Part shown: positions 2,485 through 62,099 of the stretch, one piece after another
How positions within the stretch are numbered: the first letter of the stretch is position 1
How the letters are laid out: each line of letters begins with the position of its first letter
Source: Rugalucina vietnamica
Lineage: Eukaryota > Mollusca > Bivalvia > Lucinida > Lucinidae
Assembly: GCA_964017185.1 (NCBI GenBank)
Contig: OZ024872.1
Span: 46,896,188-46,960,187 of the forward strand
Length of the DNA stretch: 64,000 nt
Reading direction: 5' to 3'
Program-made: the position numbers and the translations under genes
Notes under the pieces: generated by a model
The model's database searches: none
Seen by the model: only the letters and a program-made list of their open reading frames with translations
Told to the model about the DNA's origin: nothing

Positions 2485-2716
2485 AGCCGCCCCGTGGGAA
2501 AACCAACAATGTGGTTTCCGAACAGGTCCGACACAAACCGACCTGTACAGTAACAGAAGGAGGCTAGAAGCTTGAAATTTTGGAGTTAAGTAGAGGAGGA
2601 ATTGTACTATCCGAGTAGCGAAAACAAAGGCGCTGATCAGCTTCGCGGTTACCGCGAAGCTGATCTGCGTCTTTGTTTTCGCCTTTGCAGATTGTTGGTT
2701 TTCCCATGAGGCGGTT
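2485..2716 (+). mobile_element. Palindromic MITE, family I
   Basis: About 230 bp bounded by inverted ends: AGCCGCCCCGTGGGAAAACC on the left and GGTTTTCCCATGAGGCGGTT on the right. The right half is a large hairpin, GCGAAAACAAAGGCGCTGAT... mirrored around 2,650. The same structure is at 31,370, 37,460, 51,462, 53,454, 58,910, 60,680 and partly at 14,654, 49,557 and 63,964. No coding capacity, so it would depend on a transposase elsewhere. A frame through this family can look like a protein (for example 37,132-37,683), but it follows the repeat. Confidence 0.8.
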
Positions 2717-3564
2717 CATATTTGCCGAATAATACATGTTCCATTTTCGTTCTTAATCAGCGCGCTTTGTGCTTAATTATTATAACATTTTCGCACATAA
2801 TAATTTGCAGATAATAACAAAATTTGTGCATTTGATACAGCATTCAATTCGAGCTTTCCTAAAGCGCCGATCAAGTGTGCGCCTATTTGTGACCTTTTGT
2901 TTTGTTACCTTAACTTTAAGTAATAGTTAGAGAATGGGGGAGAGGTCAATACGAAAATTAGAGACCCGGCACGTGAACTTAAACCCGACCGAGCGCAGCA
3001 AAGATTATTATCATTGAGTGCCCGGCCGTTTATAGGGGAAACAGCTGGTCACAAATAACTGTGTGAAGTTTCTTCATACTTCTTTTTTTCAGTCACCTCA
3101 TACTAACCCTTCCCTTCTAATAACAATGAAACCAGGAAGCAAGAGCCATTTTCATACAGAAATATGCGACGGTACTTCAATATGCCGTTTAAGGCAAAAG
3201 TGAATAAATGAAACCAGCCATTTCTTGGTCTCATTGCAAAGGATTTCGGATACGCTGAAGGAACCAGTTGTATTTACCTTTAAGTTACGTAAACTTACTT
3301 TTTTACTGTTATGAAAATAACAGGGTACAAGGATCTGATAACGGCGGGGAACTTAAATTCAAGACGTCTTGTAACAATAACAACACATGTAATTATTCAA
3401 TAGAATGCAATAAATAAACGATTATGTATGCCTTCTAGCGTATAGTTTATATCATTTAGAAGATTGGTGATTGCATAGTAGGCCGAGCTAAAATATGCAT
3501 GCATATGCATGGCAGTAATGTGTGTGCTTATTAGAACGATTTTAGACAACTCGTAAAAGAAAAA

Positions 3565-3868
3565 GATAAAAATAGGCAATGATCAGGAAATGGTGCAATC
3601 AGAAAGAAATTCTCACTCCAAAAGCCAAGTAGGGAAAAACCTAAACTGACAATTAGAAAGCATATCATACATGTAAACCGAGTGAGCACTATTTAACAAT
3701 GGGCGGCCACTCCGTTACCCTTAACTTAACTGAAGGTATAAAAAAATATATAAAATTTAAACAGAATAAAAAATCGACTCCAAAACATTAATAAATAAGA
3801 ACCACAACAATAGTATCGCCTTGGAACGACCAGTAAAATTACTTGGGATCTTAAACCAAATTTACAGC
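3565..3868 (-). mobile_element. Penelope-like element, old diverged 3' copy
   Basis: Same 3' UTR landmarks as the young copies (AGGCAATGATCAGGAAATGG, then TAGTATCGCCTTGGAACGAC) but strongly diverged with internal deletions. The coding part is absent. An old insertion in unit D. Confidence 0.65.
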
Positions 3869-3884
3869 GAGGGTATTCTGAGAG

Positions 3885-4468
3885 ATCAGAAATTAATTAT
3901 CAGTTTAGATTCATTTTCTAACCAACGTTTTATATATTTGGCTCTGTATGGATAATAAAAGTCTATCGCAAAATTACAGTATTTCGCTTTGTCTCCATTT
4001 TATCAGGTTTATAGGGTTTAAGTAGCAGAAACCACGGTATGGGTCATCCCTTTTTTCATTCGTGTGCTCATTGCTCTTAAACGGTCTCAGTTTTATTTTT
4101 ATTTGCTATTACTGCTGCTGGTTTTACGCTGTGTGGCGGCCCTAAAATGTATCCCGATACATCATCCATAGTGCAGATTATATTTTTCTTTTGGTCCTTT
4201 GAGATCAGCAAGGGTACTCTGAAATTCACTATCAGATTAGATTCATTTTCTAACCAACGTTTTAAATATTTGGCTCTATGTGGATAATACTAGCCTTTGT
4301 GTCGACTATCTGTTTAAAGTTGCAAAATTACAGTATTTCGCTTCGAGTCCATTATGTCAGGTCTAAAGGGTCACTGATGAGGCTTAAGCAGCCGAAACCG
4401 CGGTACAGCATATCCATTTTCTCAAGAATATGCTCACTGTTCTTAAAGGATCTCAGTTTTTTTTTATT
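3885..4468 (+). repeat. Local tandem duplication (~310 bp unit)
   Basis: The segment from about 3,885 to 4,115 (TTAGATTCATTTTCTAACCA ... CTCAGTTTTATTTTTATTTG) recurs at 4,200-4,468. Related pieces are at 33,295-33,390 (same strand) and 12,290-12,405 (reverse), so the unit is also dispersed. Nothing coding is seen. Confidence 0.65.
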
Positions 4469-4968
4469 TACAGGGCTTTACCTCACCCTTATCTTCCGCA
4501 ATGATTCACAACGTTTAGTTAGTTGTTCGGTCCTCGTGGTGAATCTCTAAAAAGGTACATATAGGCAACGATCAGGAAAATGCGCAATCAGAAAGAGACC
4601 CCCACTCCCAAAACCGAGCTGGAAAAAACTAAACTAACAATCAGGTATTTATACCATGAAAACATATTGTTAGCCGAATGAGCAGCTTTTTTCCCAATAG
4701 GTGGACACTCAGTTACCTAAACTTCATTAAACATATGAAAACATACATAAGGTGCAAACAGCACAACAAAAAATAACACCAACTCATAAAACAATAAGAA
4801 CCACCACAGAAGTATCTCCTCGGAACGATCTGTAATACAAAATTACTTGCGGGCTTAAATCGATTACAGGTACCTAACCTCACCCTCAGCTTCTGCAGTG
4901 GTTCACAACATTTAGTTGGGTGTTCGGTCCTCGTGGTGAATCTCTAACTAGTCAATGGATCACCAAGG
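4469..4968 (-). mobile_element. Two adjoining Penelope-like 3' fragments, head to tail
   Basis: 4,469-4,549 matches an interior part of the element's 3' UTR, ending GGTCCTCGTGGTGAATCTCT. After a few A residues, a second copy starts at its 3' terminus at 4,554 (GGTACATATAGGCAACGATC) and runs to about 4,968. Both read on the minus strand, so this is a head-to-tail pair of 5'-truncated copies. Neither retains RT sequence. Confidence 0.7.
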
Positions 4969-16252: not shown

Positions 16253-16913
16253 TTCATTACAGTTGGTTCAAGTCCTGGACATTCTATCCTTACTAATTTA
16301 AAGCGCCTCTAAATTCTGTCAAGTAAACATAAAACATACACGGTCATATCATCTGTAAATGTAACATTTCTGGTGTATTGCCCTGTTCGTGTTGTTTTGA
16401 TACCACCACATCCCGTCTTTCAATACTATGATTTTGACGAGAATTCGCCACGCTATTTGCATGATACAGATCCCAGTTGGAAACAAAAACTTTTTGCGTT
16501 GATGTCTTTTCAGCACGATGGTGCACTGCATGAAGCAAATTTAAATACACTTTGAAAAGCAACACTTTCGTCAACATGAAATTTACACGTTCATATTGGA
16601 TATTTGCACGACAGGGGATATCATTTATAGGAACATTATATCTAGAAATTCACTAATAGATTATATTTTTCGAAAATGAGTATATGGATATATACTGGAT
16701 ATATACTGGTCAAAATGGTTAAGGATCAAACTTTTAAGGATGCATTTTTGGGCAAATCGATAATTAATCAATATTCCATTTATATGGTGGATTAGCAGTT
16801 TTATTGCACTTTCTTATGCCACCAATATTGATATTGTGATTCATCTGACTTAAGCACTGCTGTTCTTTAAACCACACTACCCTAAAAACCAAATGATAAA
16901 AATTCCATAAAAA

Positions 16914-18216
16914 GGTACAAGTAGGCAAATATCAGGAAAAGGCGCAATCAGAAAAACCGAGGTGGGAAAAAACCAAACTAACAATCAGGTACTTATACCA
17001 TGAAACATATCGTAAGCCGAATGAGCAGCTATTTTCCCAATAGGTGGCCACTCAGTTACCTTAACTTAACTAAAACTATGAAAACACACATAAGGCGCCA
17101 ACAGCACAAAATTTTTTTAAACACCAAGACATAAAACAAAAAGAACCACCACAGAAGTATCGCCTTGGAACGATCAGTAACACAAAGTTACTGGCGGGCT
17201 TAAACCGGTTTTAAAGGCGCCTAACCTCACCCTCAGCTTCTGCAGTGGTTCATAACATTTAGTTAGTTCTTCGGTCCTCGTGGTGAATCTCTAACTAGTC
17301 AATGAATCATCAAGAACAAACATATAAATCAAGATAAACATCCTGATGAATCAAAACCCAGGACTCACAGATTGAGTAAGCTGCCCGACGATGGAGATCC
17401 CTGGGCGCCGAATAACCTACTAACTCCGGAGCAAATGAAAAACACCAGTTGGACCCCGTTGGGCCAAGCAACAGACAAGAAGCTCCGGACCCAACCAACT
17501 AAAATGAATAGCTTTAAGTCGGGGCCATCATAGAGTCTGAAGCCCGACCCACCGGCGTGCAATTAAAGAAGGCAGCATAGTTATCAACCATGATTGGGTT
17601 AAAAACTAAGCATGCAGACTGTCGCATAACATTCAAGTTATAACCTATACGTCTGTAACGTGTTATGATTTTTCTAAATTGAAAAGAAAAATCATTAATT
17701 CCTATAAGTTTCTTAAATTTGTAAACCAAGTCACCATAAAATTCAGGTTCCGAAAGGCCCTCACTTAAAAGCGTCTTTAACCCAACATTATATTTGAAAA
17801 TCAATTCATAGTGTCTACGATAAAATTTAGAAAAGGTTTTTCGAAGTTTATGATACCGATAGCCCTGTTGGAGAAGTTTTGCCGTTAAACATTTATATTG
17901 AGCGTTGAAGTCTGTAACATGATTGCAGACTCTAGCAAACCTAATAAGTTGCGAAATGTATACACCATAAGAAGCACACGTCACCATCCAAAAAAGGAAA
18001 ATTTACTATATCAAAATCAAAGTCATCGCGCTTATCATAAATTTTAGAAGAAACAAATCCATTTGCAACAGAAAGATGTAGATCTAAAAAGGGGGCTTCG
18101 GTATCTGAGATGTTGTTTTTGTTCAACTGTAGTTCAGGTGGATAAATTTGATTGACCATACCTTCAAAATAAGGGTTGCCAATGTTCAAAAGTTCATCGA
18201 GGTACCTAGATGTGGA
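16914..18216 (-). mobile_element. Penelope-like element, 1.3 kb 5'-truncated copy
   Basis: Minus orientation; the 3' terminus is at 16,914 (GGTACAAGTAGGCAAATATC) and the truncation is at about 18,216. It holds about 600 bp of 3' UTR and about 235 codons of RT C-terminal sequence. Unit B has the empty site at about 55,200-55,225 (CCATAAAAACTGATTCCATA); the copy sits between the two CCATAAAA motifs, so no long target duplication is needed. The A-run before GGTAC is already present at the target. Confidence 0.85.
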
Positions 18217-19495: not shown

Positions 19496-20471
19496 GGTAC
19501 ATGTAGGCAAAAATCAGGAAAAGGCGCAACCAGCAAAAGATTCCCACTCCAAAAACCCGAGGTGGGAAAAAAACTAACAATCAGGTACCTATACCATGAA
19601 AACATTTCGTAAGCCGAATGAGCAGCTACTTTCCCAATAGGTGGCCAATCAGTTACCTTAACTTAACTAAAATATGATAACATACATAAGGCGCCAACAG
19701 CACAAAAATATTAAACACCAAGACATAAAACAAAAAGAACCACCACAGAAGTATCGACTTGGAACGATCAGTAACAAAAAGTTACTGGCGGGCTTAAATC
19801 GATTTTACACGGCCGTAACCTCAGCCTCAGCTTCTGCAGTGGTTCATAACATTTAGTTACTTCGGTCTTCGTGGTGAATCTCTAACTAGTCAATGAATCA
19901 TCAAGAACAAACAAATAAATCATGATTAACATCCTGATGAATCAAAAACCAGGACTCACAGATTGAGTAAGCTGCCCGACGATGGAGATCCCTGGGCGCC
20001 GAATAACTTACTAACTCCGGAGCAAAAGATAAACATCAGTTGGACCCCGGTGGGCCAAGCAACAGACAAGAAGCTCCGGCCCCAACCAACTAAAATGAAT
20101 AGCTTTAAGTCGGTGCCATCATAGAGTCTGACACCCGACCCATCGGCGTGCAATTAAAGAAGGCAGCATAGTTATCAACCGTGATTGGGTTAAAAACTAA
20201 GCATGCAGACTGTCGCATAACATTCAAGTTATAACCTATACGTCTGTAACGTATTATGATTTTTCTAAACTGAAAAGAAAAATCATTACTCCCTATAAGT
20301 TTCTTGAATTTGTAAACCAAGTCACCATAAAATTCTGGTTCCGAAAGGCCCTCATTTAAAAGCGTCTTTAATCCAACATTATATTTGGAAATCAATTCAT
20401 AGTGTCTACGATAAAATTTAGAAAAGGTTTTTCGAAGTTTATGATACCGATAGCCCTGTTGGAGAAGTTTG
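19496..20471 (-). mobile_element. Penelope-like element, ~1 kb copy with complex 5' junction
   Basis: The 3' terminus is at 19,496 (GGTACATGTAGGCAAAAATC) after an A-run longer than at the empty site in B (about 57,398, CTTGTTCAAAGGCTGC). It contains the 3' UTR and about 122 codons of RT C-terminus (minus, 20,105-20,474, ending SDSMMAPT). At the 5' side the target TTGCTTGTTCAAAGGCTG is repeated (about 20,483-20,500), followed by a small piece of the element's 3' tip in the opposite orientation. Confidence 0.8.
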
Positions 20472-20499
20472 GCTGCTTTATATTGCTTGTTCAAAGGCT

Positions 20500-27300: not shown

Positions 27301-27532
27301 TTAACCCATATTTGACGAGTGGATTCTCCCATCATTATCAATTGGATGAGTCCACTTTCATTTTAAGGGGTGTCAGGTGTGATTTTTAAAATTTTAATCA
27401 ATTTTTCGATGAAAATTCTCTAAGCAAACAGATGAAAGCCCCAGATGGGACGCCGCGTTCTGCGGCGTCACATCTGGGGCTATACTGTTTGCCTATGTCC
27501 AACAAAAGGGACACCAGGCTTATATGAGTTAA
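27301..27532. mobile_element. TTAA hairpin MITE, family III
   Basis: Ends TTAA|CCCATAT and ATATGAG|TTAA, with an internal hairpin GCCCCAGATGGGACGCCGCG mirrored around 27,455. Unit B has a single TTAA at 63,719-63,722 (GATGTTTAAAACGG), the exact empty site. Relatives are at 34,787-35,011 and 60,223-60,445. Nonautonomous. TTAA specificity suggests mobilisation by a piggyBac-type transposase (inference). Confidence 0.9.
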
Positions 27533-28240: not shown

Positions 28241-29534
28241 AGTACAAGAAGGCAAAGATCAGGAAAAGGCGCAATCAGACAAAGATTCCCACTCCAAAAA
28301 CCGAGATGGGAAAAAACTAAAATAACAATCAGGTACTTATACCATGAAAACATATCGTAAGCTGAATTGGCAACTATTTTCCCAATAGGTGGCAACTCAG
28401 TTACCTAAACTTAACTAAAAATATGAAAACATACATGTACATAAGGCGCCAACAGCACAAAAATTATTTAAACACCAATACATAAAACGAAAGAACCACC
28501 ACAGAAGTATCGCCTTGGAACGATCAGTAATATAAAAATTCTGGCGGGCTTAAATCCATTTTACAGGTACCTAACCTCACTTCTGCAGTGGTTCATAACA
28601 TTTAGTTAGTTCTTCGGTCCTCGTGGTGAATCTCTAACTAGTCAATGAATCACCAAGAACAAACAGATAAATCATGATAAACATCCTGATGAATCAAAAA
28701 CGAGGACTCAACAGATTCAGTAAGCTGCCCGACGATGGAGATCCCTGGGCGCCGAATAACTTATTAACTCCGGAGCAAAAGAAAAACACCAGTTGGACCC
28801 CGGTGGGCCAAGCAACAGACAGGAAGCTTCGGCCCCAACCAACTAAAATGAATAGCTTTAAGTCGGGGCCACCATAGAGTCTGACGCCCGACCCACCGGC
28901 GTGCAATTAAAGAAGGCAGCATAGTTATCTACCATGATTTGGTTAAAAACTAAGCATGCAGACTGTCGCATAACATTCAAGTTATAACCTATACGTCTGT
29001 AACGTGTAATGATTTTTCTGAACTGAAAAGAAAAATCGTTCCTTCCTATAAGTTTCTTAGATTTGTAAGCCAAGTCACCATAAAATTCTGGTTCCGAACG
29101 GCCCTCACCTAAAAGCGTCTTTAACCCAACATTATATTTGGAAATCAATCCATAGTGTCTACGACAAAATTTACAAAACGTTTTTCGAAGTTTATGATAC
29201 CGATAACCCTGTTGGAGAAGTTTGGCCGTAAAACATTTATTTCGAGCGTTGAAGTCCGTAACATGACTGCAGACTCTAGCAAACCTAATAAATTGAGAAA
29301 TTGTATACACCATAAGAAGCACGACGAGAAACGTCACCATCCAAAAACGGAAATTTTACCATATCAAAATCAAAGTCATCGCATCATAAATTTTAGAAGA
29401 AACAAATCCATTTGCAACCTAAAAAGGGGGCTTCGGTTTCTGAGATATTGGCTTTGTTCAACTGTAGTTCAGGTGGATAAATTTGATTGACCATACCTTC
29501 AAAATAAGGGTTGTCAATGTTCAAAAGGTCATCG
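28241..29534 (-). mobile_element. Penelope-like element, 1.3 kb copy
   Basis: The 3' terminus AGTACAAGAAGGCAAAGATC follows GAAAA. It includes the 3' UTR, the RT C-terminus (28,858-29,290) and further upstream RT sequence to about 29,534, with a deletion in the VANGF region. The flanks match the 38.2-38.4 kb backbone without an insertion. Confidence 0.85.
28870..29534 (-). pseudogene. RT C-terminal fragment of the 28.2 kb copy
   Basis: The minus frame 28,858-29,340 contains ISQFIRFARVCSHVTDFNAR, KLRKTFCKFCRRHYGLISKY and the end ASDSMVAPT. N-terminal to it, pieces of the LDL/YDK region are recognisable up to 29,534 but shifted and partly deleted (about 29,385-29,425). It is nonfunctional. Compared with 17,520-18,222 it has several changes at otherwise conserved Tyr and Lys positions. 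Confidence 0.75.
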
Positions 29535-31603: not shown

Positions 31604-31855
31604 AAATATTTGTTTTCCAGCAGAATAACATAGCGAAAAACAATGGCAATTTAAATTAATTTGTCTGACATTACTAGACCCGCAAAGAAGATCTCCATGC
31701 GAGTATATACAGTCTTCAACCTAGTACAAATCAAAACATTAATGACCTGAATTAGAGCCTCACTTTCACATATATTTCCAGCTAGCAGACAACCACATGC
31801 CATGGTGATGGTTACTAAATGTACTTTGTATTGATTTCTTTAATTAATGCTTATA
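31604..31855 (+). other. Short noncoding spacer
   Basis: Contains GTCTGACATTACTAGACCCG, resembling the start of block V (44,728, 26,701). No gene. Confidence 0.5.
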
Positions 31856-34066
31856 TAGTCCGAGATCCAAGGTCCAAATTTTTGGTTAACCCTACACGAT
31901 CTTGGCCTTAAGGTATGATGGCTTTTTTTGAAAGATATATGATAGTAGTCTATGAAACAGGTCCGTGTATAAAAATTTAGGCCGGCAAAAGTCTTCAAAA
32001 TGGCCGCCATCCAAGATGGCTGCCGAAATTAGAATTTATACAGGCTTGAGTAAAAAGCGTTTTCATTTTAGATTTTGGTACATTTAAGTGCTTTCAGTGT
32101 AAATTTTCTATAAACTCAACATTATGCTTTAGCATATTAAGTTGAATTAACCCAGTTTTGATGTTCGCATGCGTTACATACGTTACTATATTAATGTTAC
32201 TTGTGAGAAATGAAAATATTGACTATTAGTGTTTATCTTAGTGCCATTCTTCAAAGTTTTTGAAGTGTTTATGCAAAGTGTTCCTTAAAAGACTTGAGTA
32301 GCGTCTTGATAAAGCTTCTTTGGGTCGTTAATCTGCATTTGGTGGTCAGCCTCAGGTCTTTTATCACATAAATCAAGGTTCACTCTTTATCACTTAATAT
32401 TGTAAACTCACATATTTTGGGTAAACTCACATATTTTGGGTCTGATCATACATACAATCAACAGCTGTTGATTATTTGTTAATAAATTATATGGATTAGA
32501 ACCGCTAACTCCATTTATATAATTTTGATACCCTCAAGACGTTCCTAACTGTTACATATGTTACCTTTTTTATGATATTTCCTACAAAATTAATATATTG
32601 ACTATTCTTGTTTATTTTTATGTTATTCTCTAAAGTTTTTGATTTTTTGTATTAAATGCATTAAAAGACATGAAAAATATCTTTATTAAGTTAGTTTGTG
32701 TGCTTTATTTGCTCCATCCATCAGCGATGGGTCTTTAAACACATAAATCCAGGTTTAAACTTGACTCCTAAAATATTATACACTCACATATTTGGGGTCA
32801 AACACATTGATAAAACAGCTGATGGGGTTTTATAGATTGAACATATGTAATAGAATTTTAACTCAAATGTTTTAGAGTCAAGATGTACCCAGCTGTTACA
32901 TATGTTACTTTTCTAAGGAGCCTTTAACACGATTAACATTATTTCCATGTTCTGAAGATGTTGACAACTGTTACATTCATCACTTTTCTTAAATGATATA
33001 TCCTACAGAAGCAATAAATTGACAACTGTTGTAAATGGCGTTTATATGCTCTTAGGTTTTTGAATTGGTATTATATTGATTGCATTAAAATACATGGGAG
33101 ACATTTTGATAAAGACATTTTGGATGCGATATTTGCTTTGAACGTCAGCAATGGGTCTTTAAACATATAAATCCGTGGTAAACTAGATCACTTACATATT
33201 GTAAACTCAAATAATTAGGGTCGGAACACATAATCATATTTATAAGAATCTTAAACTTAATATACAAGTACAAATACAAAAACTCCATAGGGTCACTGAG
33301 GACTGAGGAGGCTTAAGTAGCCAAGCATCCCCTTTCTCAATAATATGTTAACTGCTCTTAAAGGATCTCACTTTTATTTTTAGTTGAAGAGGACTGTGTA
33401 TAGAACTTTAGACTGGGAAAGTCCTAAAAATGGGAACAATTCATTTATACATATATGACTTACTGGATCAGATTTTACGGGAAAAGGAGTTTGTCTCCCA
33501 TGAGTGTCTTTTTGTTACCTATCTGATTCAATCATTTAAATGTTGATATGCTTAACCCACAATTCTTTTTTGAGTGGTATTGTCTGAAATGTATATCCAA
33601 ACAGCAGATGATGATGAATAAAAAGATAAAATGTCTAAAAATGACATCATCCATAGTATGTACATTGAGAGCCATATTCTAAACATTGTTTTAATTATCT
33701 GACCCAATTTAGGCATGTGTCTTAAATTTAGACTTCCTTTGTGTAAATCCAGAAATTGTATAATGTACCCACACTTCTCCTTTTAATTGTTTATGCCACT
33801 TCTAAAGAATATAAAGTAAAGGGGTCAAGGTACCGAAATCGTAATTCTAGCTCGTAAAAATCCATAATAACATTGACAAATACGAGATATGTAGCCATAC
33901 AGGCATGGATCCCCCAATAACAGGAGGTGTGATCAGGTGTTTGCGAAGGGTGAGGATCACCTGCCCATTATAATGCACCCGCCATGTCCTTATGACTGCT
34001 TACAAAGCCGAGAAAATTAATATCTGGTAAGAAACGAATGTCCAGTAATTGAAAGCCTTATTAATT

Positions 34067-34285
34067 GTTGCCAATTGGCAAAAGGTCAGTCACAAGCTTA
34101 GACGCAGCCACGCTGTAGGGATCAACAAGGTCATGGTGTCTCCCATAGAACTTTTTAAGAGTTGACACAAGCTTGGTCCTGCGATATCCCCGTGACAACA
34201 ATTTGGTGGTGAGTAACTTCCCCCTATCAACAAAGTCTTCGTAGTTACAACAGGCTCTAGCATAGCGAACTAGCTGAGAGACATT
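34067..34285 (-). pseudogene. RT C-terminal fragment of a second Penelope-like family
   Basis: The minus-strand frame reads NVSQLVRYARACCNYEDF, then KLLTTKLLSRGYRRTKLV and LKKFYGRHHDLVDPYSV, ending with a stop just after PIGN. It aligns motif by motif with YISQLIRFARVC ... KLLQQGYRYHKL ... SKFYRRHYELISKYNV of the main family, but differs in most other residues, so it is a separate RT lineage. About 73 codons, no start. It lies in the centre of the foldback-like element. Confidence 0.7.
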
Positions 34286-34786
34286 TAACGTTTAACTTAA
34301 AAGTTAATAATCTGATAATGTTATAAATCTTTTGCAAAATTAATACATGTGTACAAGTTCAATCATAAAAAAAATAAATCATAAAATTACTATAAACAGT
34401 TTAAAAATGAACAAAAATAGTCAAACTCTTGATTTTATGGGGATATACCAATAAGAGTAACATATGTAACAGTTACGAACATCTACACTGTGTTAATAAA
34501 GAAAAATATTCTAACACGTAACATTATATATATACATGTAAGTATATATAAAACAACAATATGTACATGTAATGTATTTAGTTAAGACCAAAGATTATAT
34601 GTGTTTAATACAACTAGTAGCCTCAAGTAAAGGGGAATGTTTGTTTTTGAACAAAGGTTAATGAAAACAAAACCAGTTTGATCACCCAAATGTTTTATTT
34701 GTGTTGTGGGTTAACATGCCAGTCAAATAATGTTTGAGTATTGTGTTGACAGAGACATTTAACCAGATACCTTTAGCTTAACTAGC

Positions 34787-35011
34787 TTAACACATATAAG
34801 CCTGGCGTCCCTTTTATGGGACATAGGCAAACAAAATAGCCCAAGATGTGACGTTGCAGAACGCGGCATCCCATCTGGGACTATTCTGTTTGCTTAAAGA
34901 ATTTTCATCGAAAGTTGAATAGAATTTAAAAATTACACCTGATGCCCCTAAGAACTGAATACTCACCAGAATGATAAAGACGGGAAAATGCATTCGTCAA
35001 ATATGGGTTAT
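34787..35011. mobile_element. TTAA hairpin MITE family III, inside the foldback arm
   Basis: TTAA|CACATATAAGCC at the left and ATATGGG|TTAT at the right (one changed base in the right target), with the internal hairpin of the family (GATGTGACGTTGCAGAACGC). It interrupts the right arm of the foldback-like element, so it is younger than that element. Confidence 0.8.
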
Positions 35012-36307
35012 GAAAATGTAACTCCGTGCCACCATGGTTCAAAACAAGGAACACTCGTTTAGGAGTGTGTTGCTGTAATACTACACCAAGATGGTCTTCA
35101 AAACTACACAAATTTACTTTGATTAAAATTGTCACAATCTTTTATAAAGAAAATACAAGATAGGCTTTCATTAACAGAAATTGGGACCATTAAACAAACA
35201 AGATTAGGCAAATAATGATTTTATATGGGATTATGGGGTATCCTATGACAAGTAACATGTGTAACAGTTGTCAACATCTTGAGAACATAGAGAACATTCA
35301 AATTGGAGGTAAATGTGCTACGACATTTGTATTATAACTCATAAAAAAATTCAGCAGCTGTTGAAATTTTGTGTGTTAAGAACCCAAATGTATCAGTATT
35401 CAGTGATCGAGTTGAACCTTTATTTATGCCTTCAAAAAACATGCTGCTGACCAACAAAAGCAGAAAAAACACCAAAAAATGGCTATAGCAAGACACCCCT
35501 CGTGTTTTGTAAACATATTAATGCAAAAATACACAAAAACTTTAAAGAATAACACTAAAATAAACAGTAACAATGGATATTATGATTTTGTAGCATGTAA
35601 CATTAATGGTGTAACGTATGTAACATGTGAGAACATCAAAATCGTCCTAAATCAAATTAATTTAAAAATGCAAATTTCTATTTTATGTTTTATTGATAAA
35701 ACATAAGTAGCTGTTCAATTAATGTATTCAAACCCAAAATATGTGAATTTATGATATTTTAGTGATCAAGTGTGAACCCGGATTTATGCGTTCAAAGACC
35801 CATTGTTGACTTAAGTGTTAAGATTATGTATCTAAAATTGCTTTATATAGATGTTCCTTATGTCTTTCACTGCACTAAATACAAAAACACACTTAAACCT
35901 TTAAATGACACCACTCAAACAAACAATAACAGCCAATCTATCATTTAATGGCAGATAGCGTTAAAAAGTAATGTATGTAACACATGAGAACATACAAACT
36001 GTGTTAAATAAACTAAATATGCTTCAACATATGTTGAATTTATAGAAAACCAACACTGAATGCAGTTAAATGTAACAAAATCTAAAATGAAAAAGTTCAT
36101 TACACAAACCTGTACAATTCCTAATTTTGGCGGCCATCTTGGATGGCGGCCATTTTGAAGACTTTCGCCGGCCTAAATTTTTATACACGGACCTGTTTCA
36201 TAGACTACTATCATATATCTTTCAAAAAAAGCCATCAAACCTTAAGGCCAAGATCGTGTAGGGTAAACCAAAATTTTGACATCTCCTGGATTTTGGATCT
36301 CGGTCTA

Positions 36308-37369
36308 ATATTATTTGTTTTAAGAAAGTAGTATGTTGATCGTATTAAGATAGATCAAGTTAGTATAAATTACTTATGTTTTTATGAGGCACAACAGAAT
36401 TTGATAACATAATGCTACTTGACACCCCTACTTGTTTGGACCTCACTGACAATACACAAACTTGCACTGAATTCTGACATCATCAGGTGTGTTGTAATTG
36501 ATCTTTTTTTGTGCAATTGCATCTAAATAATAATTGCAATTTTATTTTTTTCAACTGCATGTGATACATCTATTGAAGATCTCTAACATAAATACCCAAA
36601 AGTACCATTAAATAAATAAATAAAGCCAAAAACACCATGACCTACATAGATATTGGGCATCAAACTGGTACCGTTATTCATTAATTATTAATGATCTGGC
36701 TGATTCATGGGTGTCTGAGGCGGAGCTATTTGACTAACTGACAGAGAATACATAGATTGAACTACATGTGAGCTAAAATGTGGGTGTTGCCTTTATTAAA
36801 TGAATACAGAAGCCCCAGTTTGTAGGTGGTGATCAAGGAAATTTCCTCTATTATGGACCGCCTTTTGTCCTGAATTTCTCTAAAATAAGAACACACAGCT
36901 GAATGGAATTTACTACAAGGTTAAATAGTATCATTGTACATGTGATCTAGCCAAGGTTAAATGAGTTAAATTTCAGAATGAAGGTGTCAAAAAAGCAGTT
37001 AATAATGGGGCTCTTGGGGGTAAAGAATTTGGGTACATGTAAATTAATTAATGATCTGATTGATTCACAGCTCGCAGCTGTAGTTAAACTCTGTATCTGC
37101 AATGTAGATAAACAGAAGTTCATTATAAGACATGTTTTGCAGTCCTGGGTGCAGTTTTAGCAAAATGAATCACCCATTTTCTTGTAAAAAATGTGTGTTT
37201 TTGCCAAATTTCATGTACTGGTCCCCGCTTTCTGCTAAGCTGGTTTGGAGATATCAAGTATTGATTTTTGGGGATCCAGTAGAATTTTTCGTCAGCTACA
37301 GCAGAATTTTTATCAGAAATTCAGGTGTTGGGTTTCAAAATGCATGTTTAGAGAGACTACTGATAAGCG
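36308..37369 (+). other. Unassigned noncoding stretch
   Basis: No recognisable gene or repeat apart from a repeated phrase (TTAATTATTAATGATCTGGC at about 36,683; TTAATTAATGATCTGATTGA at about 37,042). Short frames only. Confidence 0.5.
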
Positions 37370-38300
37370 GTAAGATGCGGACTGTGACCCTATCTGAATG
37401 CTCAAAACGAACAGGCAGAAAAATATCACAGATTTTTATTGTTAGAAGCAGACATTTGTGCCGTCTCGTGAGAAAACCAACAAAGTGGTTTCCGAACAGG
37501 TGCGACACAAATCAGGCTGTACAGTCACAGAAGCAGGCTAGACGCTTGAAATTTCGGATTCAAGAAGAAGAGGAATTGCACTATCCGTGTAGCGAAAACA
37601 AAGGCGCTGATCAGCTTCGCGGTTACCGCGAAGCTAATCTGCGTCTTTGTTTTCGCCTAGGCAGATTGTTGGTTTTCCCATGAGGCGGCCCATTTTATAC
37701 CTCATTTTTTCCTTACATTTATGGGCAAGATTTGCAAATTCGTTTGGTATTAGGTTCCTTGAAAATAAATAAAAGGATATATAAATTACCTACTTAATGA
37801 TCGATCTGGCAACTGGAGATCTATAAACAACGACTTATATGATTCGGCTAGTCTATGTTAAGGGCAATATAGATAAAACAATAAATTGAGATCATTCTTT
37901 ACCCCTGCACTTTAGTCTGTTCCACCACAAGTATAACGGAGTGCAACAGGTATTTTCTGCGCACTTAGCGTTTCTAATAACGACATTTAGAAGTACCATA
38001 CGGTTTTATGGTTAGTTCCCTCATGATATCACACTTTTAGGCACATGGGTGTAACGAGAAGGAAAACCCTAAATGCAGCTTGTGGTTTGTTCTAAGAGAA
38101 GAAGAAAACCTCCTTGTAGCAAACAATGCGGGCTCTGAACAAGATACCTGCCTGTCAGAAAGATATGAAATCGTTCTGAAATATTCATGAAATTACAAAT
38201 GCGGTGTCCCTTGGGGGGAATATAAATGGTAGTTGAACGGTTCCTATGGCATGCTTCCTGATAAACAAATACATATCACATATCTGATGAGTTTTATGAC
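37370..38300 (+). repeat. Backbone repeat block V (copy 2) with a MITE inside
   Basis: TATCTGAATGCTCAAAACGA, GGATATATAAATTACCTACT and TTCGGCTAGTCTATG match 44,780-45,010 and 27,640-27,770. A family I MITE sits at 37,460-37,691. 38,185-38,270 matches 28,060-28,140. Confidence 0.7.
37460..37691 (+). mobile_element. Palindromic MITE family I
   Basis: Left GCCGTCTCGTGAGAAAACC, right GGTTTTCCCATGAGGCGGC. The hairpin GGCGCTGATCAGCTTCGCGG and its mirror are nearly perfect. The 183-codon plus frame 37,132-37,683 runs through it and is not considered a gene. Confidence 0.85.
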
Positions 38301-49930: not shown

Positions 49931-51461
49931 GCGCATTTCACGAATCCGTAATTACACAAATGTAGGAGTCTTCTCTACTACGATACATGTATAATGATTA
50001 AATGTTTTTGTTTCGTGTCAAAATGCTTTTGAGAAAGATATTAAAAAAAAAGATTTTAAATATCTTTGAATTCTTCACCTTGGTTAAATAAAGCATGCAT
50101 AATGTGTTATGGAACAGTGTCATCCCCACGCACCGCATTCGAAAAATGAGTAATTATACTCGTTCGGTTTGTTCAATTATATCTCGAGTATGTGTGAAAT
50201 ACTTAAGTTAAATGGATTACATGTAATTTGATTTCTTTAATTGTTGTCGGGATTCAACTGTTCATGCGATGATCGCTTTAAACGTTTACGTTTGATGTTT
50301 TTGTTCTTTAATTAAAGCTAATAAAAGCTGCTATTTTGTTTGGATTGACTTTGAATGACAGGTATCGAGCACTCGTCCTGTTGCGGATTACACCATCAAA
50401 AGAAAAATACAAATACCTCATGAAATAATTATAAAAAAGATTCTCATAAAAATAAAATGATAAATTAAATGAGTAGAACTTGATTGCGAATTTAACACAC
50501 TGTCATTACTAATTGACATTATGGAATCATGAGCGAATTGACATCTGTGTTTTCAATTCGGCATCTACTGCCGAAAAAGGAGAAAAAAATATGGTAAAGT
50601 TTAATGTATTATTTCCGCAAAATATCACTCTCTAAACTTAAGCCTATTAATTTATTCATATAAAATTCTTTATTACACTATCAGTCATCAAATACATTTC
50701 ATTTTCATATTAGAGCGATAATCTTCGACAACCCCATTATTACCTGGAAATTAAGTCGGGTCTTATCGGTGCATTTTACGGATACTCACGGAAATTCCAG
50801 ATAGAAAATAATATTTATTATTTTTTTTGTCCTTGCTCAAACAGACCAATTTATCGTTGAGCTACAAAAATAAAAAAAAATACACCAGATTAAAATATAA
50901 TATTTCTACTACATTGGACCGTTTGTGACGCCTAACATTTATGTAAAATTATAGCTTAAACCTGTTGCTGAAGTCATGTACCTAGGCGTATTTAACCGCG
51001 TTTTACGGAAATTTTGCTATATATTTAATTAAATTGCGTACAACAAGACGGCCGTCCCCAAACAGACCATTTTATAATAGCGCTACGTCAAAAATTTAAA
51101 AACTATGGTAAAGATAAAGAATTATACTTTCTAACGCCGTTCGTGATATAAAAATATCACAAGAAATAAGAAAGTTACGAAGTGTTAAATATTTTTTCCC
51201 TATATGTTTTATACAAATTATTGGCCAATACCTGTACAAGTGCTAGTACGACTAAAGTACCCCATGTGTGCATTCTTCTTGCATATACACCGTATAGTAT
51301 GTGAGCTAATTAGAATGCTTATAAGATAACTCGCAGAAGAACTGGATATGCACTGATTAAAACAAGAGCGCGAAGGCTTTGATTGGCCCCGCGGTTTCAG
51401 AGGGGAAGATGGACGTCAGAGCAAGCTCGCGTGTGAGCCTTCGACTCAGGTGAGCTAAAAT

Positions 51462-51700
51462 GAGCCTGTGCGTGAGAAAACCAACAATTTGGGTTCCGAA
51501 CAGGCCCGAAACAAACCAAGCTGTACAGTCATAGAAGCAGGATAGAAGCTTGAAATTTCGGATTTAAGAAGAATATAAGTATTGTACTATCCACTTAGCG
51601 AAAACAAAGGTACTGATCAGCTTCGCGGTTACTGCGAAGCTGAGCTGCGCATTTGTTTGCGCCTAGTATGCTGATTGTTGGTTTTCCCATGCAGCGGCTC
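51462..51700 (+). mobile_element. Palindromic MITE family I, complete
   Basis: GAGCCTGTGCGTGAGAAAACC at the left and GGTTTTCCCATGCAGCGGCTC at the right, central hairpin around 51,635. The left half only is kept at the matching site in A (14,654). Confidence 0.85.
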
Positions 51701-51826
51701 AAATAGTATTTTAACAAAATGGTAAGTGAAGCAGACAGAACAGTCCGTAATGACTTTAACAATCGCTAAATATTTTTATAGAATGTCAACCTATTATATG
51801 GTAGTTGATTTTTAGCATAGCGTTCA

Positions 51827-52929: not shown

Positions 52930-53690
52930 TTAATATAAAGCACGCTTTAAAAATCAAACTTAGATTCGTTTTTTTTCCGCTAGTGAAGTCACATGATACA
53001 TTGTCACTAGAATCCACATACGACGGACACTTGAGTCCAATTTTACCTTATGCATTTTAGTTGGTACACATATGATGATGTGTTGGCCAAATGTTGTTGC
53101 TCTTTTCTTCTGTTTCGGCCTTTTAATTGTGCCTTTATATATTTAGCCTCGTAAGAGGAAATAGCTTATTATTCTGTTCACCTTATGTTACCGTATATTC
53201 TCTTTGTATCTGTGCTTATTTATAATTTATTTGTTTCCTTCCTGGGATTTTTTTTTCGCTATTGAAGTCACGTGATACATTGTCACTAGAAACCCCATAT
53301 GACAGACACGGACAATTGTGTCCAATTTTACCTTATGCATTTTAGTTGGAACACATATGATGATGTTGTTCTGTTTCGGCCTTTTTATTGTGCCTTTATA
53401 TATTTAGCCGCGTAAGAGGAAATAGCTTCTTATGTTACCGTATATTTTTTTGTAAAAACCAACAATCTGCATATGCGAAAACAAAGACGCAGATCAGCTT
53501 CGCGATAACCGCGAAGCTGATCAGCGCCTTTGTTTTCGTTACTCGGATAGTACAGTTCCTCTTCTACTTAAATACGAAATTTCAAGCTTCTAGCTCTTTT
53601 CTGTGACTGTACAGGTCGGTTTGTGTCGGACCTTGTCGGAAACCACATTGTTGGTTTTCCCACGAAGCGGCTCATTTATTTGTTTCCTTG
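52930..53690 (+). repeat. Local tandem duplication (~280 bp) present once in A
   Basis: GAAGTCACATGATACATTGTC ... GCCTTTTAATTGTGCCTTTA at 52,985-53,135 recurs at 53,261-53,400. Unit A has one copy (14,838-14,990). The second copy is interrupted by a family I MITE at 53,454-53,673. Confidence 0.8.
53454..53673 (-). mobile_element. Palindromic MITE family I
   Basis: Starts AAAAACCAACAATCTGCATA (outer ~15 bp of the left end missing), hairpin around 53,505, right end GGTTTTCCCACGAAGCGGCTCA. Unit A and the adjacent tandem copy have the site without it (about 15,045 and 53,205). Confidence 0.8.
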
Positions 53691-55795: not shown

Positions 55796-56780
55796 GGTAC
55801 AAGCAGGCAAAGATCAGGAAAAGGCGCAATCAGAAAAAGATTCCCACTCCAAAAACCGAGGTGGGAAAAAACCAAACTAACAATCAGGCACCCACACCAT
55901 GAAACATATCGTAAGCCGAATGAGCAGCTATTTTCCCAATAGGTGGCCACTCAGTTACCTTAACTTAACTAAAAATATGAAAACATACATAAGGCGCCAA
56001 CAGCACAAAAAATTTTAAACACCAAGACATAAAACAAAAAGAACCACTACAGAAGTATCGACTTGGAACGATCAGTAACACAAAGTTACTGGCGGGCTTA
56101 AACCGGTTTTACAGGTACCTAACCTCACCCTCAGCTTCTGCAGTGGTTCACAACATTCAGCCAGTTCTTCGGTCCTCGTGGTGAATCTCTAACTAGTCAA
56201 TGAATCATCAAGAACAAACAAATAAATCATGATAAACATCCTGATGAATCAAAAACCAGGACTCACAGATTGAGTAAGCTGCCCGACGATGGAGATCCCT
56301 GGGCGCCGAATAACCTACTAACTCCGGAGCAAAAGAAAAACACCAGTTGGACCCCGGTGGGCCAAGCAACAGACAAGAAGCTCCGGCCCCAACCAACTAA
56401 AATGAATAGCTTTAAGTCGGGGCCATCATAGAGTCTGACGCCCGACCCACCGGCGTGCAATTAAAGAAGGCAGCATAGTTATCAACCATGATTGGGTTAA
56501 AAACTAAGCATGCAGACTGTCGCATAACATTCAAGTTATAACCTATACGTCTGTAACGTGATATGATTTTTCCGAACTGAAGAGAAAAATCATTTATTCC
56601 TTTAAGTTTCTTTAATTTGTAAACCAAGTCACCATAAAATTCAGGTTCCGAAAGGCCCTCACTTAAAAGTGTCTTTAACCCAACATTATATTTGGAAATC
56701 AATTCATAGTGTCTACGATAAAATTTAGAAAAGGTTTTTCGAAGTTTATGATACCGATAGCCCTGTTGGAGAAGTTTTGT
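55796..56780 (-). mobile_element. Penelope-like element, ~1 kb copy
   Basis: The 3' terminus GGTACAAGCAGGCAAAGATC is at 55,796 and the 5' truncation at about 56,780 (GAGAAGTTTTGTA). Unit A has the empty site at about 18,812-18,835 (TATATGTAATGTATGTTTTACAAGGCC, one insertion point). It contains the 3' UTR and about 122 codons of RT. Confidence 0.85.
56412..56780 (-). pseudogene. RT C-terminal fragment, intact frame
   Basis: Minus frame: KLLQQGYRYHKLRKTFSKF, then KYNVGLKTLLSEGLSEPEF, LNVMRQSACLVFNPIMVDN and the end ASDSMMAPT. No stop or frameshift over about 122 codons, so this is among the youngest copies. The open frame continues upstream into host backbone (to 56,900), which is not part of the protein. 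Confidence 0.8.
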
Positions 56781-57467
56781 AGAGATAGGGCCATTAAAAC
56801 CTGTTCCAATTCGCGTTTTCGTACGTTGAATTGATTGGAAGATTAAAAGATTTAAAGCGAGGCTGACGCTTATTTTCGTATCAAATGTCCTACGTGGCAC
56901 ATTAGCAAGTTGATTCCAAAGCAGAAGTCAACAGAGTACCTTGAACAAAGCTCCACCATTAGACCTGGGTTTGGGTAAACTTAAACCAAAATCACGACAA
57001 GTAATATTTTCTACAATCAACAAATAAACGAGATTGTCGCTCTTTCACAAATGGTTGTCATTCAAAAACTTAGAGTGAAGCGACTTAATTGAATTTCAAA
57101 GATACCCAAGAATTACATTTTGTTATTAAAATTCATGTTTTTAAGGATTTACTTTTGTTTTCACAATTTATCAAAGTGGATGTGCAAGGATTTATTTGTC
57201 ATTTTCTCGGGAAAACATAACTCCGTGTCTTTCTTATTTTCAAAACCGGAGATTAGATTCACGGTTTGTCTGAGGCACTATCTGTAATTCAATCCGCAAC
57301 AGCAGATATTGGTAATATTCCCAGGGGAATATGCAAATACAGTCACTTTATCAAGTTGAGATTAGATGCTGAAACACAACATTTATCCATTTGCTTGTTC
57401 AAAGGCTGCTTTATTACTTTACCTTTTTAAAGTATAAGCCTAGCAGGCGTTTATGATATTAGAAAAA

Positions 57468-58125: not shown

Positions 58126-58909
58126 AAGACAAGATTGTGTTTTGGTCCGACGAAGAATTTAGATCTGATAACGAATAAAACTAATAGCATTTGCATATTT
58201 TTGTCTAAACTGCAAAAGATTAACTCTCTATGGAATTTGGAGAAAGACATATTTCAACGGTCATTGCTCACCTTAAAACTACAGTAATATTTACAATGTC
58301 TATGATTTAAAAAAAAAAAGCATTTGTCTCCATAAGATTATTGCATGATCATCTCTATAAAGGACTCTTAAATATCTTTGAATATATTTTCTTTAGTCAG
58401 GGAACAATACGAAAAATGGCATTTGAAATCTGATACGCTTATGTCAAAATCAAATAAAATAAACAAATGGTTAACAAGAATAAGATATCTGTTTACAGTT
58501 TTAATCCATCATAAGGATTTCCCTTGTCGACAAAGTTAACTCTTGTTTCTGGTAGGGTCCATCGGGATTTAAATATAGTCTTTCTTTCGCTCTGGTATTT
58601 CAAAGTCGGCGTTGCTGTTTGATCCTCGGTTCTTCGTCATCACAGTGCTTATTCATGTGTGATATTCTGTGCTGGTTCTTGAACCAGCCAGGACCGAATA
58701 TATCATTTTTGTCAAATTACATCATTCTAATGGCTAGGACAGGAGCCTTGTAAAATCGATGACCATCTTGTTGGGAAAGACCTCGGCCTGTTGCTCGCTT
58801 TGCCTGTTGGTAAATTTGTTTTTTGGTATTTTGTGTTTTCCTTTCTATCCCGCCTGTTTATGTTGGATCCCATGCAAAATACAGAGAGTATTCTTCAGCT
58901 GTAAAAAAT

Positions 58910-59143
58910 GAGCCGCCTCGTGGGAAAACCAACAATGTGGTTTCCGAACAGGTCCGACACAAACCGGCCTGTACAAGCACAGAAAAGAGCTAGAAGCTTG
59001 AAATTTCGGATTTAAGTAGAAGAGGAACTGTACTATCCGAGTAGCGAAAACAAAGGCGCTGATCAGCTTCGCAGTTACTGCGAAGCTGATCTGCGCCTTT
59101 GTTTTCGCATATGTAGATTGTTGGCTTTCCCACGAGGCGGCTC
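58910..59143 (+). mobile_element. Palindromic MITE family I, near-perfect inverted ends
   Basis: GAGCCGCCTCGTGGGAAAACC at the left and GGCTTTCCCACGAGGCGGCTC at the right. Unit A has the empty site CTGTAAAAATTGAAAATTTCG (23,079-23,099); here CTGTAAAAAA and AATGAAAATTTCG flank the element, giving only a 2-3 bp duplication. Confidence 0.9.
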
Positions 59144-59158
59144 AAATGAAAATTTCGT

Positions 59159-60222: not shown

Positions 60223-60445
60223 TTAACTCATATAAGACTGGCGTCCCATTTATGGGACGTAGGCAAACAGTACACCACCAGTCGTGACGCCGTTCAGGGG
60301 CTATTTTGCTTGCGTAGAGAATGTTTTAATACAATTTTAAAGAATTGAATACAATTTCATAATTTCACTCCTAGTTACCCTAAAAATGAATGTAGACTCG
60401 CCCAATGATAACGATAGGAAAGCCCATTCGTCATAAATGGGTTAA
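60223..60445. mobile_element. TTAA hairpin MITE family III
   Basis: TTAA|CTCATATAAG at the left and AAATGGG|TTAA at the right. The empty site is in A: GTACTTTTAAAGCACACG (25,716 and other satellite junctions), whose reverse complement fits B exactly with one TTAA. So one TTAA became two. Confidence 0.9.
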
Positions 60446-60679
60446 AAGTACAAATATTTTTAAACAATACACAAGATATGCCAATTATCTGAAAGTGTCT
60501 AGACGAATTAAACCAAAGTGGACATTTGGCGTGGAACAATGAGGGATCGAAGACATTTACAGGAATTTTTTTTGGAAACATATCAATTTTTATTCTTCTG
60601 TTTTGTCTTATCCGTCTTGCCCATTCCGTCCCCATTAGGCATCTCAGTCCGTGGCACAATTTAAAATTCAACTAACATA

Positions 60680-60915
60680 TGATCCGCCACATGGGAAAAC
60701 CAACAATCTGCATAGGCGAAAACAAATGCGCAGATCATCTTCGCAGTAACTGCGAAGCTGATCAGCGTCTTTGTTTTCGCTTCACGGATAGTGCAATTCC
60801 CCCTCTACTTAACTCCAAAATTTCAAGCTTCTAGCCTGCTACTGTAGATGTGCAGACCGGTTTGTGTCAGACCTGTTCGGAAACCACATAATTGTTTTTT
60901 CCACGAGGTGGCTCA
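60680..60915 (-). mobile_element. Palindromic MITE family I
   Basis: GATCCGCCACATGGGAAAACC at the left and TTTTTTCCACGAGGTGGCTC at the right. The A counterpart (about 24,690-24,715) lacks it. Confidence 0.8.
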
Positions 60916-62099
60916 ATTATATCTTTACATAAACATTGATATTAAAAGTGCACACTTAGAAGTTCACCAGTCAGTCTCAATCTACATGTTGTTATTGTAT
61001 TCATATAACGTTATAATTTCCATAGGGAGGCAAAAGCAGACTGCTGTTGTTGATAAAAGCACTATGCATGAACATCACGTGAACATCTCCGTATGGTCGC
61101 TATTAAAGCATTCGGCAAATTATAGGTGAACTCTTCTTAAGAAGGAGGCGACTCATCCATATAACCGAACTGACCATAACCTTAGATAAAAACGGCATCG
61201 TAAATGACAGTCTAGTTGTCAGCTGTTTTTATAAGGAATTCAGCCAACTTGTTTGAACATAGCAATATGTGAAAATGTCATCGAAAAAGATACCGAAGTA
61301 AGTAAAATACAGAGAACTGCAAATCTACTCAATAGTATGCGTTCACTATTTACATATCAGGGTTACATGTAAACAACAAACAAACAAATAAAATTACTAC
61401 GGCAATACTTATTTACATGTAAGTGAATTTAACATTAACAATAAACCACGTTTTTGATTTGTGATAAATTTTCTGCCTTTTACGGTAATTTTTACGGTAA
61501 TCTTTGGTGAAAGCACGGGCTCCAAATGTGCAAGGCTCTGGTCTAGTTTCATTTAGTAATGCGAGATTTTCTTGGATCTTTACTTATATACATGACATAA
61601 GCTGTACATAAGTTGTACCTACATGACAACTTAAAAGTTTCACACCATTCGCTGCATCACGCCAGCGTTAAATGGTTAAATGGTATTTCAAGATTGTTGA
61701 ACGCACTTGTGCGAAAGCTATTGAGGTTATTTTCAGTAAGTGACAAGGCGTATACATGATGCCACTGATGTTATCAACGATACATATCTTAATAAACGTT
61801 GCCTCTGTGGAAACATGCCTGTGTGTAATGATTCGTTAATCGTAGATCAAGTATCAAAGGCAGTGCTATTATGAAATTGCCTGAGAAGCCAGGAGTATTT
61901 CAACTTTTATTCCTGGAATTCAACAGCAATATTTTATTTAGAAACGCAAGTAAAACGTGATTGAAAACTATTGAGTGCAAAAACGTAGTTTTCCTTCATT
62001 TGTCATTTAATAATTAAAATAACCAACACTGATTTAACCATCTCCTTGTAAATCTGATCGCAGTAAACCTCCACTTAAATAGTTAAAAAGAGGTTTTAT

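Follow-up and report, generated by a model that had tools for sequence, protein, structure and literature searches.

The 64,000-nucleotide stretch of the bivalve Rugalucina vietnamica analysed here, hereafter the window (contig OZ024872.1, positions 46,896,188 to 46,960,187), contains at 31856-36307 one insertion of a dispersed family of DNA transposons. The family has a foldback-like plan, with mirrored arms made of subrepeats, many copies, fixed ends and a target duplication. We think it quite probable that these are non-autonomous cut-and-paste transposons that are moved in trans and whose arms supply extra sites for the transposase.

Ends, target duplications and copies

The copy in the window reads TAGTCC...GGTCTA, opening with TAGTCCGAGATCC at 31856 and closing with GGATCTCGGTCTA at 36307, with the triplet ATA on either side. 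The original prediction, made from the letters of the window alone, had placed a foldback-like element at these very positions, which are exact. Family ends read TAG[T/C]CCGAGATCC, and the consensus is 4,666 bp long. It was built from 16 copies; L024, at 5,030 bp, was excluded for its length, and L010 and L013 are nearly alike. A 295-bp end probe found 335 candidates in the 1.09-Gb genome, and the best 40 of these, which were scored, are 97-100% identical. The end pattern TAGNCCGAGATCCAA has 277 exact 15-base matches genome-wide, against 3 for a reversed control. Among the 100 places listed of these 277, 78 form 39 convergent left-right pairs within 12 kb and 22 ends are unpaired. Each pair joins a T-type end to a C-type one, or in the window copy to an A-type one, and the paired ends lie 2.4-10.3 kb apart, with lengths clustering near 4.65 and 5.03 kb. 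Counting exact ends alone, the family has at least about 140 copies.

Other copies with the same ends and with target duplications were what the original prediction looked to for support, and the duplications are as regular as the ends. A target duplication of 3 bp flanks 33 of the 35 copies tested and none is longer, while in the control with swapped flanks 57 of 1190 comparisons agree. In the first set examined, the duplication was present in 16 of 17 complete copies (16 from 20 loci, plus the window copy), with no complete copy recovered from L019, L021, L023 or L025. Of the 35 copies, L036 and L013 lack it. At L013 (1975-10000) two copies stand in tandem, separated by a 1,078-bp spacer, and share their left flank; element and spacer were here duplicated together, perhaps by unequal exchange. 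The duplicated triplets vary and are AT-rich, with 20% G+C against 35% in the ten bases on either side.

For 15 copies the flanks were joined and matched against the available loci, which for three of them gave stretches spanning the junction. Those for L015 sit in its own locus, within diverged repeats; for L020 and L018, paralogous repeats align across the junction gap-free with the triplet present once, and are thus empty sites. The source of the L020 empty site is a dispersed repeat of about 240 bp found in at least six places in the window (2485-2719, 37454-37694, 51448-51701, 53451-53674, 58909-59144 and 60679-60920), the first, second and fifth of which are among the examples. The internally deleted copies L034 and L035 retain their duplications. 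Class II elements of the terminal inverted repeat (TIR) kind that are moved in trans are marked by fixed, inverted ends, by short target duplications and by derivatives with internal deletions in which the duplication is retained. We infer mobilisation of this kind, by cut and paste, for the family.

The copies differ little from one another. Sixteen copies of about 4.65 kb are 98.67-99.22% identical to the consensus (mean 98.9%), their pairwise mean is 97.97%, and the tree of copies is mostly star-like with few close pairs. Because the pairwise distance is about twice the distance to the consensus, these comparisons suggest that the family multiplied in a recent burst from few masters. The form of about 5.03 kb carries an extra 377-412 bp at consensus 1865 and is probably older, as its four copies are only 96.2-99.3% alike. 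The window copy is the shorter form minus 60 bp and 145 bp. A sister family sharing the same 15 bases followed by C or T was not supported, with 2 places against 2 in the control, one of them a paired copy at C1:34143490, and when 176 kb made up of flanks and window were searched for more distant relatives of the outer repeat, the best E was 0.034.

Mirrored arms and the centre

The arms are inverted rows of diverged units of about 340-410 bp, each opening with the core TGTTACATAYGTTAC (Table 1). The left arm of the consensus (318-1500) matches the right arm (2721-4341) in inverted orientation with a best E of 4e-36, against 0.24 in direct orientation; in a Markov control, 1 of 60 shuffled pairs fell below 1e-3. 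The arms are thus mirrored, as the original prediction had held, and not independent arrays. At no more than one mismatch, consensus cores lie on the plus strand of the left arm at 317, 695, 1042 and 1451 and on the minus strand of the right arm at 4327, 3970, 3605 and 2810. All point inward, four per arm; 200 Markov shuffles yielded no core. The window copy has three cores on the left and four on the right, its fourth left core having been lost to the 60-bp deletion. The three or four marked units per arm of the original prediction therefore hold for TGTTACATAYGTTAC, and its second marker, CACATATTTTGGGT, is weaker, with three left-arm sites, including a pair spaced by 19 bp, and a single site on the right at no more than one mismatch. 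Its unit length of 340-380 bp fits the better-kept units; R3 and R4 retain little past the unit start. Units L1, L2, L3, R1 and R2 are 59-69% identical to one another. They look old on sequence comparison, because the cross-arm pairs L1-R2 and L2-R1 (69% each) are as close as neighbours within one arm.

Among the best 40 of 293 candidates for unit L2, which were scored, no satellite arrays of the unit were seen, and the near-identical unit is single except for an extra copy at C6:5180484. At that locus (L078, G000:C6:5179600-5181700), consensus positions 767-1065, approximately, occur twice, which amounts to one extra arm unit.

The two ends of the consensus are identical over 51-150, 88% identical over 151-300 and 58-90% identical beyond. 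In the window copy they agree at 98 of 100 positions over consensus 51-150 and at 259 of 289 in the outer 290 bp, in inverted orientation, which is the close inverted repeat of about 290 bp that had been predicted; repeat finding and BLAST carry the inverted match further inward, across diverged stretches. We found no sign of gene conversion between the ends of a copy. Across 17 copies, end identity is 0.9232 within and 0.9233 between copies, and these equal values argue against equalisation of the ends within single copies. The simplest explanation is that the outer part is under constraint. The outer repeat also contains AAGATGGC/GCCGCC motifs at window positions 31998-32026 and in the mirror at 36128-36156, which we take to resemble a YY1 site.

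Stop-free stretches in the consensus span 85 codons at most, and the centre looks like passenger DNA. On the minus strand, consensus 2438-2635 has 45% protein identity to the open reading frame (ORF) at window positions 17514-17987, with relatives at 28858, 56412 and 20105. A Pfam search of the protein fragment returned no family; we take it and the related window ORFs to be reverse-transcriptase tails. The four ORFs, all on the minus strand (17514-17987, 20105-20494, 28858-29340 and 56412-56900), adjoin a repeat of about 650 bp at 16907, 19493, 28238 and 55795. Short stretches at window positions 4045-4105 and 4359-4469 match consensus 1489-1587, which belongs to the centre of the element, at 74-79% identity, and the region around them looks tandemly repeated. 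Within the right arm, R3 contains a dispersed repeat of about 224 bp.

Table 1. Parts of the window copy and its target duplication (window positions)
Feature	Positions	Strand	Remarks
Target duplication ATA, left	31853-31855	.	
Entire element, TAGTCCGAGATCC...GGATCTCGGTCTA	31856-36307	+	Deletions of 60 bp (33272/33274) and 145 bp (33748/33749)
Left outer inverted repeat	31856-32171	+	259/289 in outer 290 bp; consensus 51-150 same at both ends
Left unit L1	32172-32549	+	Core at 32172
Left unit L2	32550-32893	+	Core at 32550
Left unit L3	32894-33272	+	Core at 32894, plus a second, degenerate core
Centre	33274-34370	.	Without long open frame; starts past the 60-bp deletion (fourth left core gone)
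Protein fragment in centre	34079-34282	-	45.6% identity to ORF 17514-17987; no Pfam family
Right partial unit R4	34371-34471	-	Core at 34457
Right unit R3, interrupted	34472-35266	-	Core at 35252, 1 mismatch
Dispersed repeat inside R3	34787-35013	.	Other copies at 27302-27532 and 60223-60444
Right unit R2	35267-35625	-	Core at 35611
Right unit R1	35626-35982	-	Core at 35968, 1 mismatch
Right outer inverted repeat	35983-36307	-	
Target duplication ATA, right	36308-36310	.	

The mobilising enzyme

In the mechanism that we favour, a transposase encoded elsewhere in the genome would recognise the outer inverted repeat of about 300 bp, and probably also the inward cores TGTTACATAYGTTAC along both arms. 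It would excise the element at TAG...CTA and reinsert it with a 3-bp stagger. The arms would act as rows of extra binding sites that aid the enzyme in finding and pairing the ends, and the centre would be carried along as passenger DNA. The ends are identical at consensus 51-150 but 58-90% alike beyond 300, a pattern to be expected from constraint on the outer part. If the transposase has repeated sites, the inward cores, spaced by one unit, are the likeliest candidates. In Galileo, extra transposase-binding sites have been demonstrated within the tandem repeats of the long ends (PMC3688188).

Three observations weigh against this mechanism. No transposase-bearing family member was found. The deleted copy L034 retains about 33 bp of the right arm yet has its duplication; either the deletion came later than the insertion, or the element can do without its right arm, and the latter would speak against the idea of binding rows. 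Finally, the core is absent, at few mismatches, from the outer repeat.

Autonomous members were looked for among long copies and unpaired ends. The copies of 10.3 kb (L029 with L030), 7.5 kb (L037) and 6.4 kb (L038) proved to be the ordinary element plus inserted material. They have one, three and two stop-free stretches of at least 100 codons, respectively, the longest of 140, in which no transposase was recognised by eye, no protein-family scan having been made; a 6.2-kb copy, L025, was examined in part. Pieces of 500 bp served to probe 20 of the 22 ends that are unpaired among the 100 places listed. Seventeen match the family partly or wholly, two (L059 and L065) fall inside a neighbouring paired copy and are uninformative, and one, L062, has no match. 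The end of L062 (L077 7573-7902) is 86% alike to the family over about 334 bp, with unrelated sequence beyond; it has no second end within 8 kb, and its next best genome match is also 86% (best 40 of 332 scored). This lone end may be left over from a sister family of greater age.

As to the class of the enzyme, the duplication of only three target bases makes it probable that the mover is of a different kind from that of the fruit-fly foldbacks. Academ, Zator or PIF/Harbinger, classes with duplications of 3 bp or 3-4 bp, might supply it, a tentative assignment that we hold possible and somewhat short of probable. Academ duplications are 3-4 bp long, a range that the length here fits. PIF/Harbinger elements prefer TWA targets, whereas the triplets here vary and show no such preference. 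Duplications of 3 bp, as here, are described for PIF/Harbinger and for Zator (PMC10045372), and Academ and Zator are reported to be almost exclusively bivalve among molluscs (PMC10294476). A genome search with the Zator-like profile PF07592 gave no match, but the control found nothing in any of its 14 genomes either, and the lack of a match does not speak for absence.

We regard it as rather unlikely that the family is a CACTA/EnSpm element moved by this genome's CACTA transposase, even though CACTA elements typically make 3-bp duplications and carry repeats close to their ends. The duplications of pvCACTA1 are AT-rich (PMC4938662), as are the triplets here, and its ends are unusually long for its class. 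The enzyme is also at hand: PF02992 (Transposase_21) has 15 above-cut-off matches in the genome, nine of them in open frames of 736-901 residues, which are CACTA transposase genes; elements with the 901-residue frame lie at G000:C4:15163307, C5:35584318 and C9:42372430. However, the copies read end TAGTCC...GGGCTA (TAGTCC/TAGCCC) rather than CACTA...TAGTG, and no mirrored unit rows are mentioned in the excerpted account of pvCACTA1 (PMC4938662). No link of the family to these genes was seen. No exact end, among those listed, lies within 900 kb of the five PF02992 matches on C3 and C4, and likeness to the family is at background level in 1.9 kb adjoining one CACTA match, a stretch that stops short of the ends of that element (rank 5 of 46 for the outer repeat and 18 of 46 for the whole consensus). 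Two of the CACTA-type genes, in several long open frames at L079 and L080 (G000:C4 near 15.16 and 15.30 Mb), may be recent copies, because the 1.9 kb flanking them are 100% identical.

Relation to known foldback elements

Drosophila FB elements make 9-bp duplications, and their long inverted arms consist of tandem subrepeats 10-31 bp in length. The arm plan is the same here, with units of about 340-410 bp and a duplication of 3 bp. Tetris of Drosophila virilis (PMC4079207) is similar in being non-autonomous, in having long inverted ends with an outer flanking domain and an inner row of tandem units of about 220 bp, and a non-coding centre, in varying in unit number between copies, and in that no autonomous partner has been found; the extra arm unit in the C6 copy parallels an extra unit in a Tetris allele. 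In contrast, Tetris makes 8-10-bp duplications, its unit length is unrelated, three complete copies of it are reported, against dozens here, and it differs again from the present family in that no satellite arrays of the unit were seen here among the candidates scored. Galileo, a Drosophila element of the P superfamily (PMC3688188, PMC3573991), likewise has long, internally repetitive inverted ends, but its duplications are 7 bp and some copies encode a transposase, whereas no coding member was seen here. Tm1, a Mutator/foldback element of root-knot nematodes (PMC3169594), resembles the family in its composite inverted ends with a repeated motif, its non-autonomous members and the lack of a clear target consensus; it differs in its commonly 9-bp duplications, its motif of about 14 bp and its transposase-bearing members.

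Most foldbacks are apparently of Mutator type, with exceptions (PMC4079207), and the shared plan, in which long inverted arms consist of tandem subrepeats, might place the family among the Mutator- or P-type foldbacks in the narrow sense (FB, Tetris, Tm1 and Galileo). We consider this very improbable, as 33 of 35 copies have 3 bp and never more, against 7-10 bp in Tetris, Tm1 and Galileo. The same difference limits the foldback likeness of the original prediction, which stands for the plan but is not supported for kinship with Drosophila FB. The element behaves as a non-autonomous foldback would. Membership of a known foldback family is not supported, Tetris, Tm1 and Galileo making longer duplications, and we do not count the element as a member of FB. 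It is scarcely credible that these are satellite arrays independent of each other, or an element with a central array like Helentron, HINE or Pearl. HINE/Pearl elements of bivalves are mobile and carry tandem repeats, and many short tandem arrays of bivalve genomes sit inside HINEs (PMC7492417), but each such element has one central array between two modules, with inverted repeats that are subterminal and not terminal, whereas the copies here have two mirrored rows that match in inverted orientation only, exact common ends with target duplications, and an L2-like unit that, among the candidates scored, is single with one exception.

The suggestion that the family may be undescribed stands, since no such mollusc family was found in a partial coverage of the literature, Repbase and Dfam not included; likewise, the part of the literature on 3-bp duplications that was covered yielded no mention of foldback elements. 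To the favoured mechanism we would add, with the odds about evenly balanced, that a class of transposase with a 3-bp stagger, whether CACTA-, Academ- or Zator-like or unnamed, has here come to move elements of foldback plan. Mirrored rows of sites would then be a convergent feature, present in one more class in addition to Mutator and P, and the family would have been active recently and perhaps still be so.

If the arms do consist of arrayed sites for a transposase that cuts with a 3-bp stagger, they would support the independent evolution of long repeated ends across transposon classes. With about 140 or more copies of low divergence, insertions may remain polymorphic between individuals. 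Such polymorphic insertions would expose excision, the formation of inversions and changes in unit number to direct observation.

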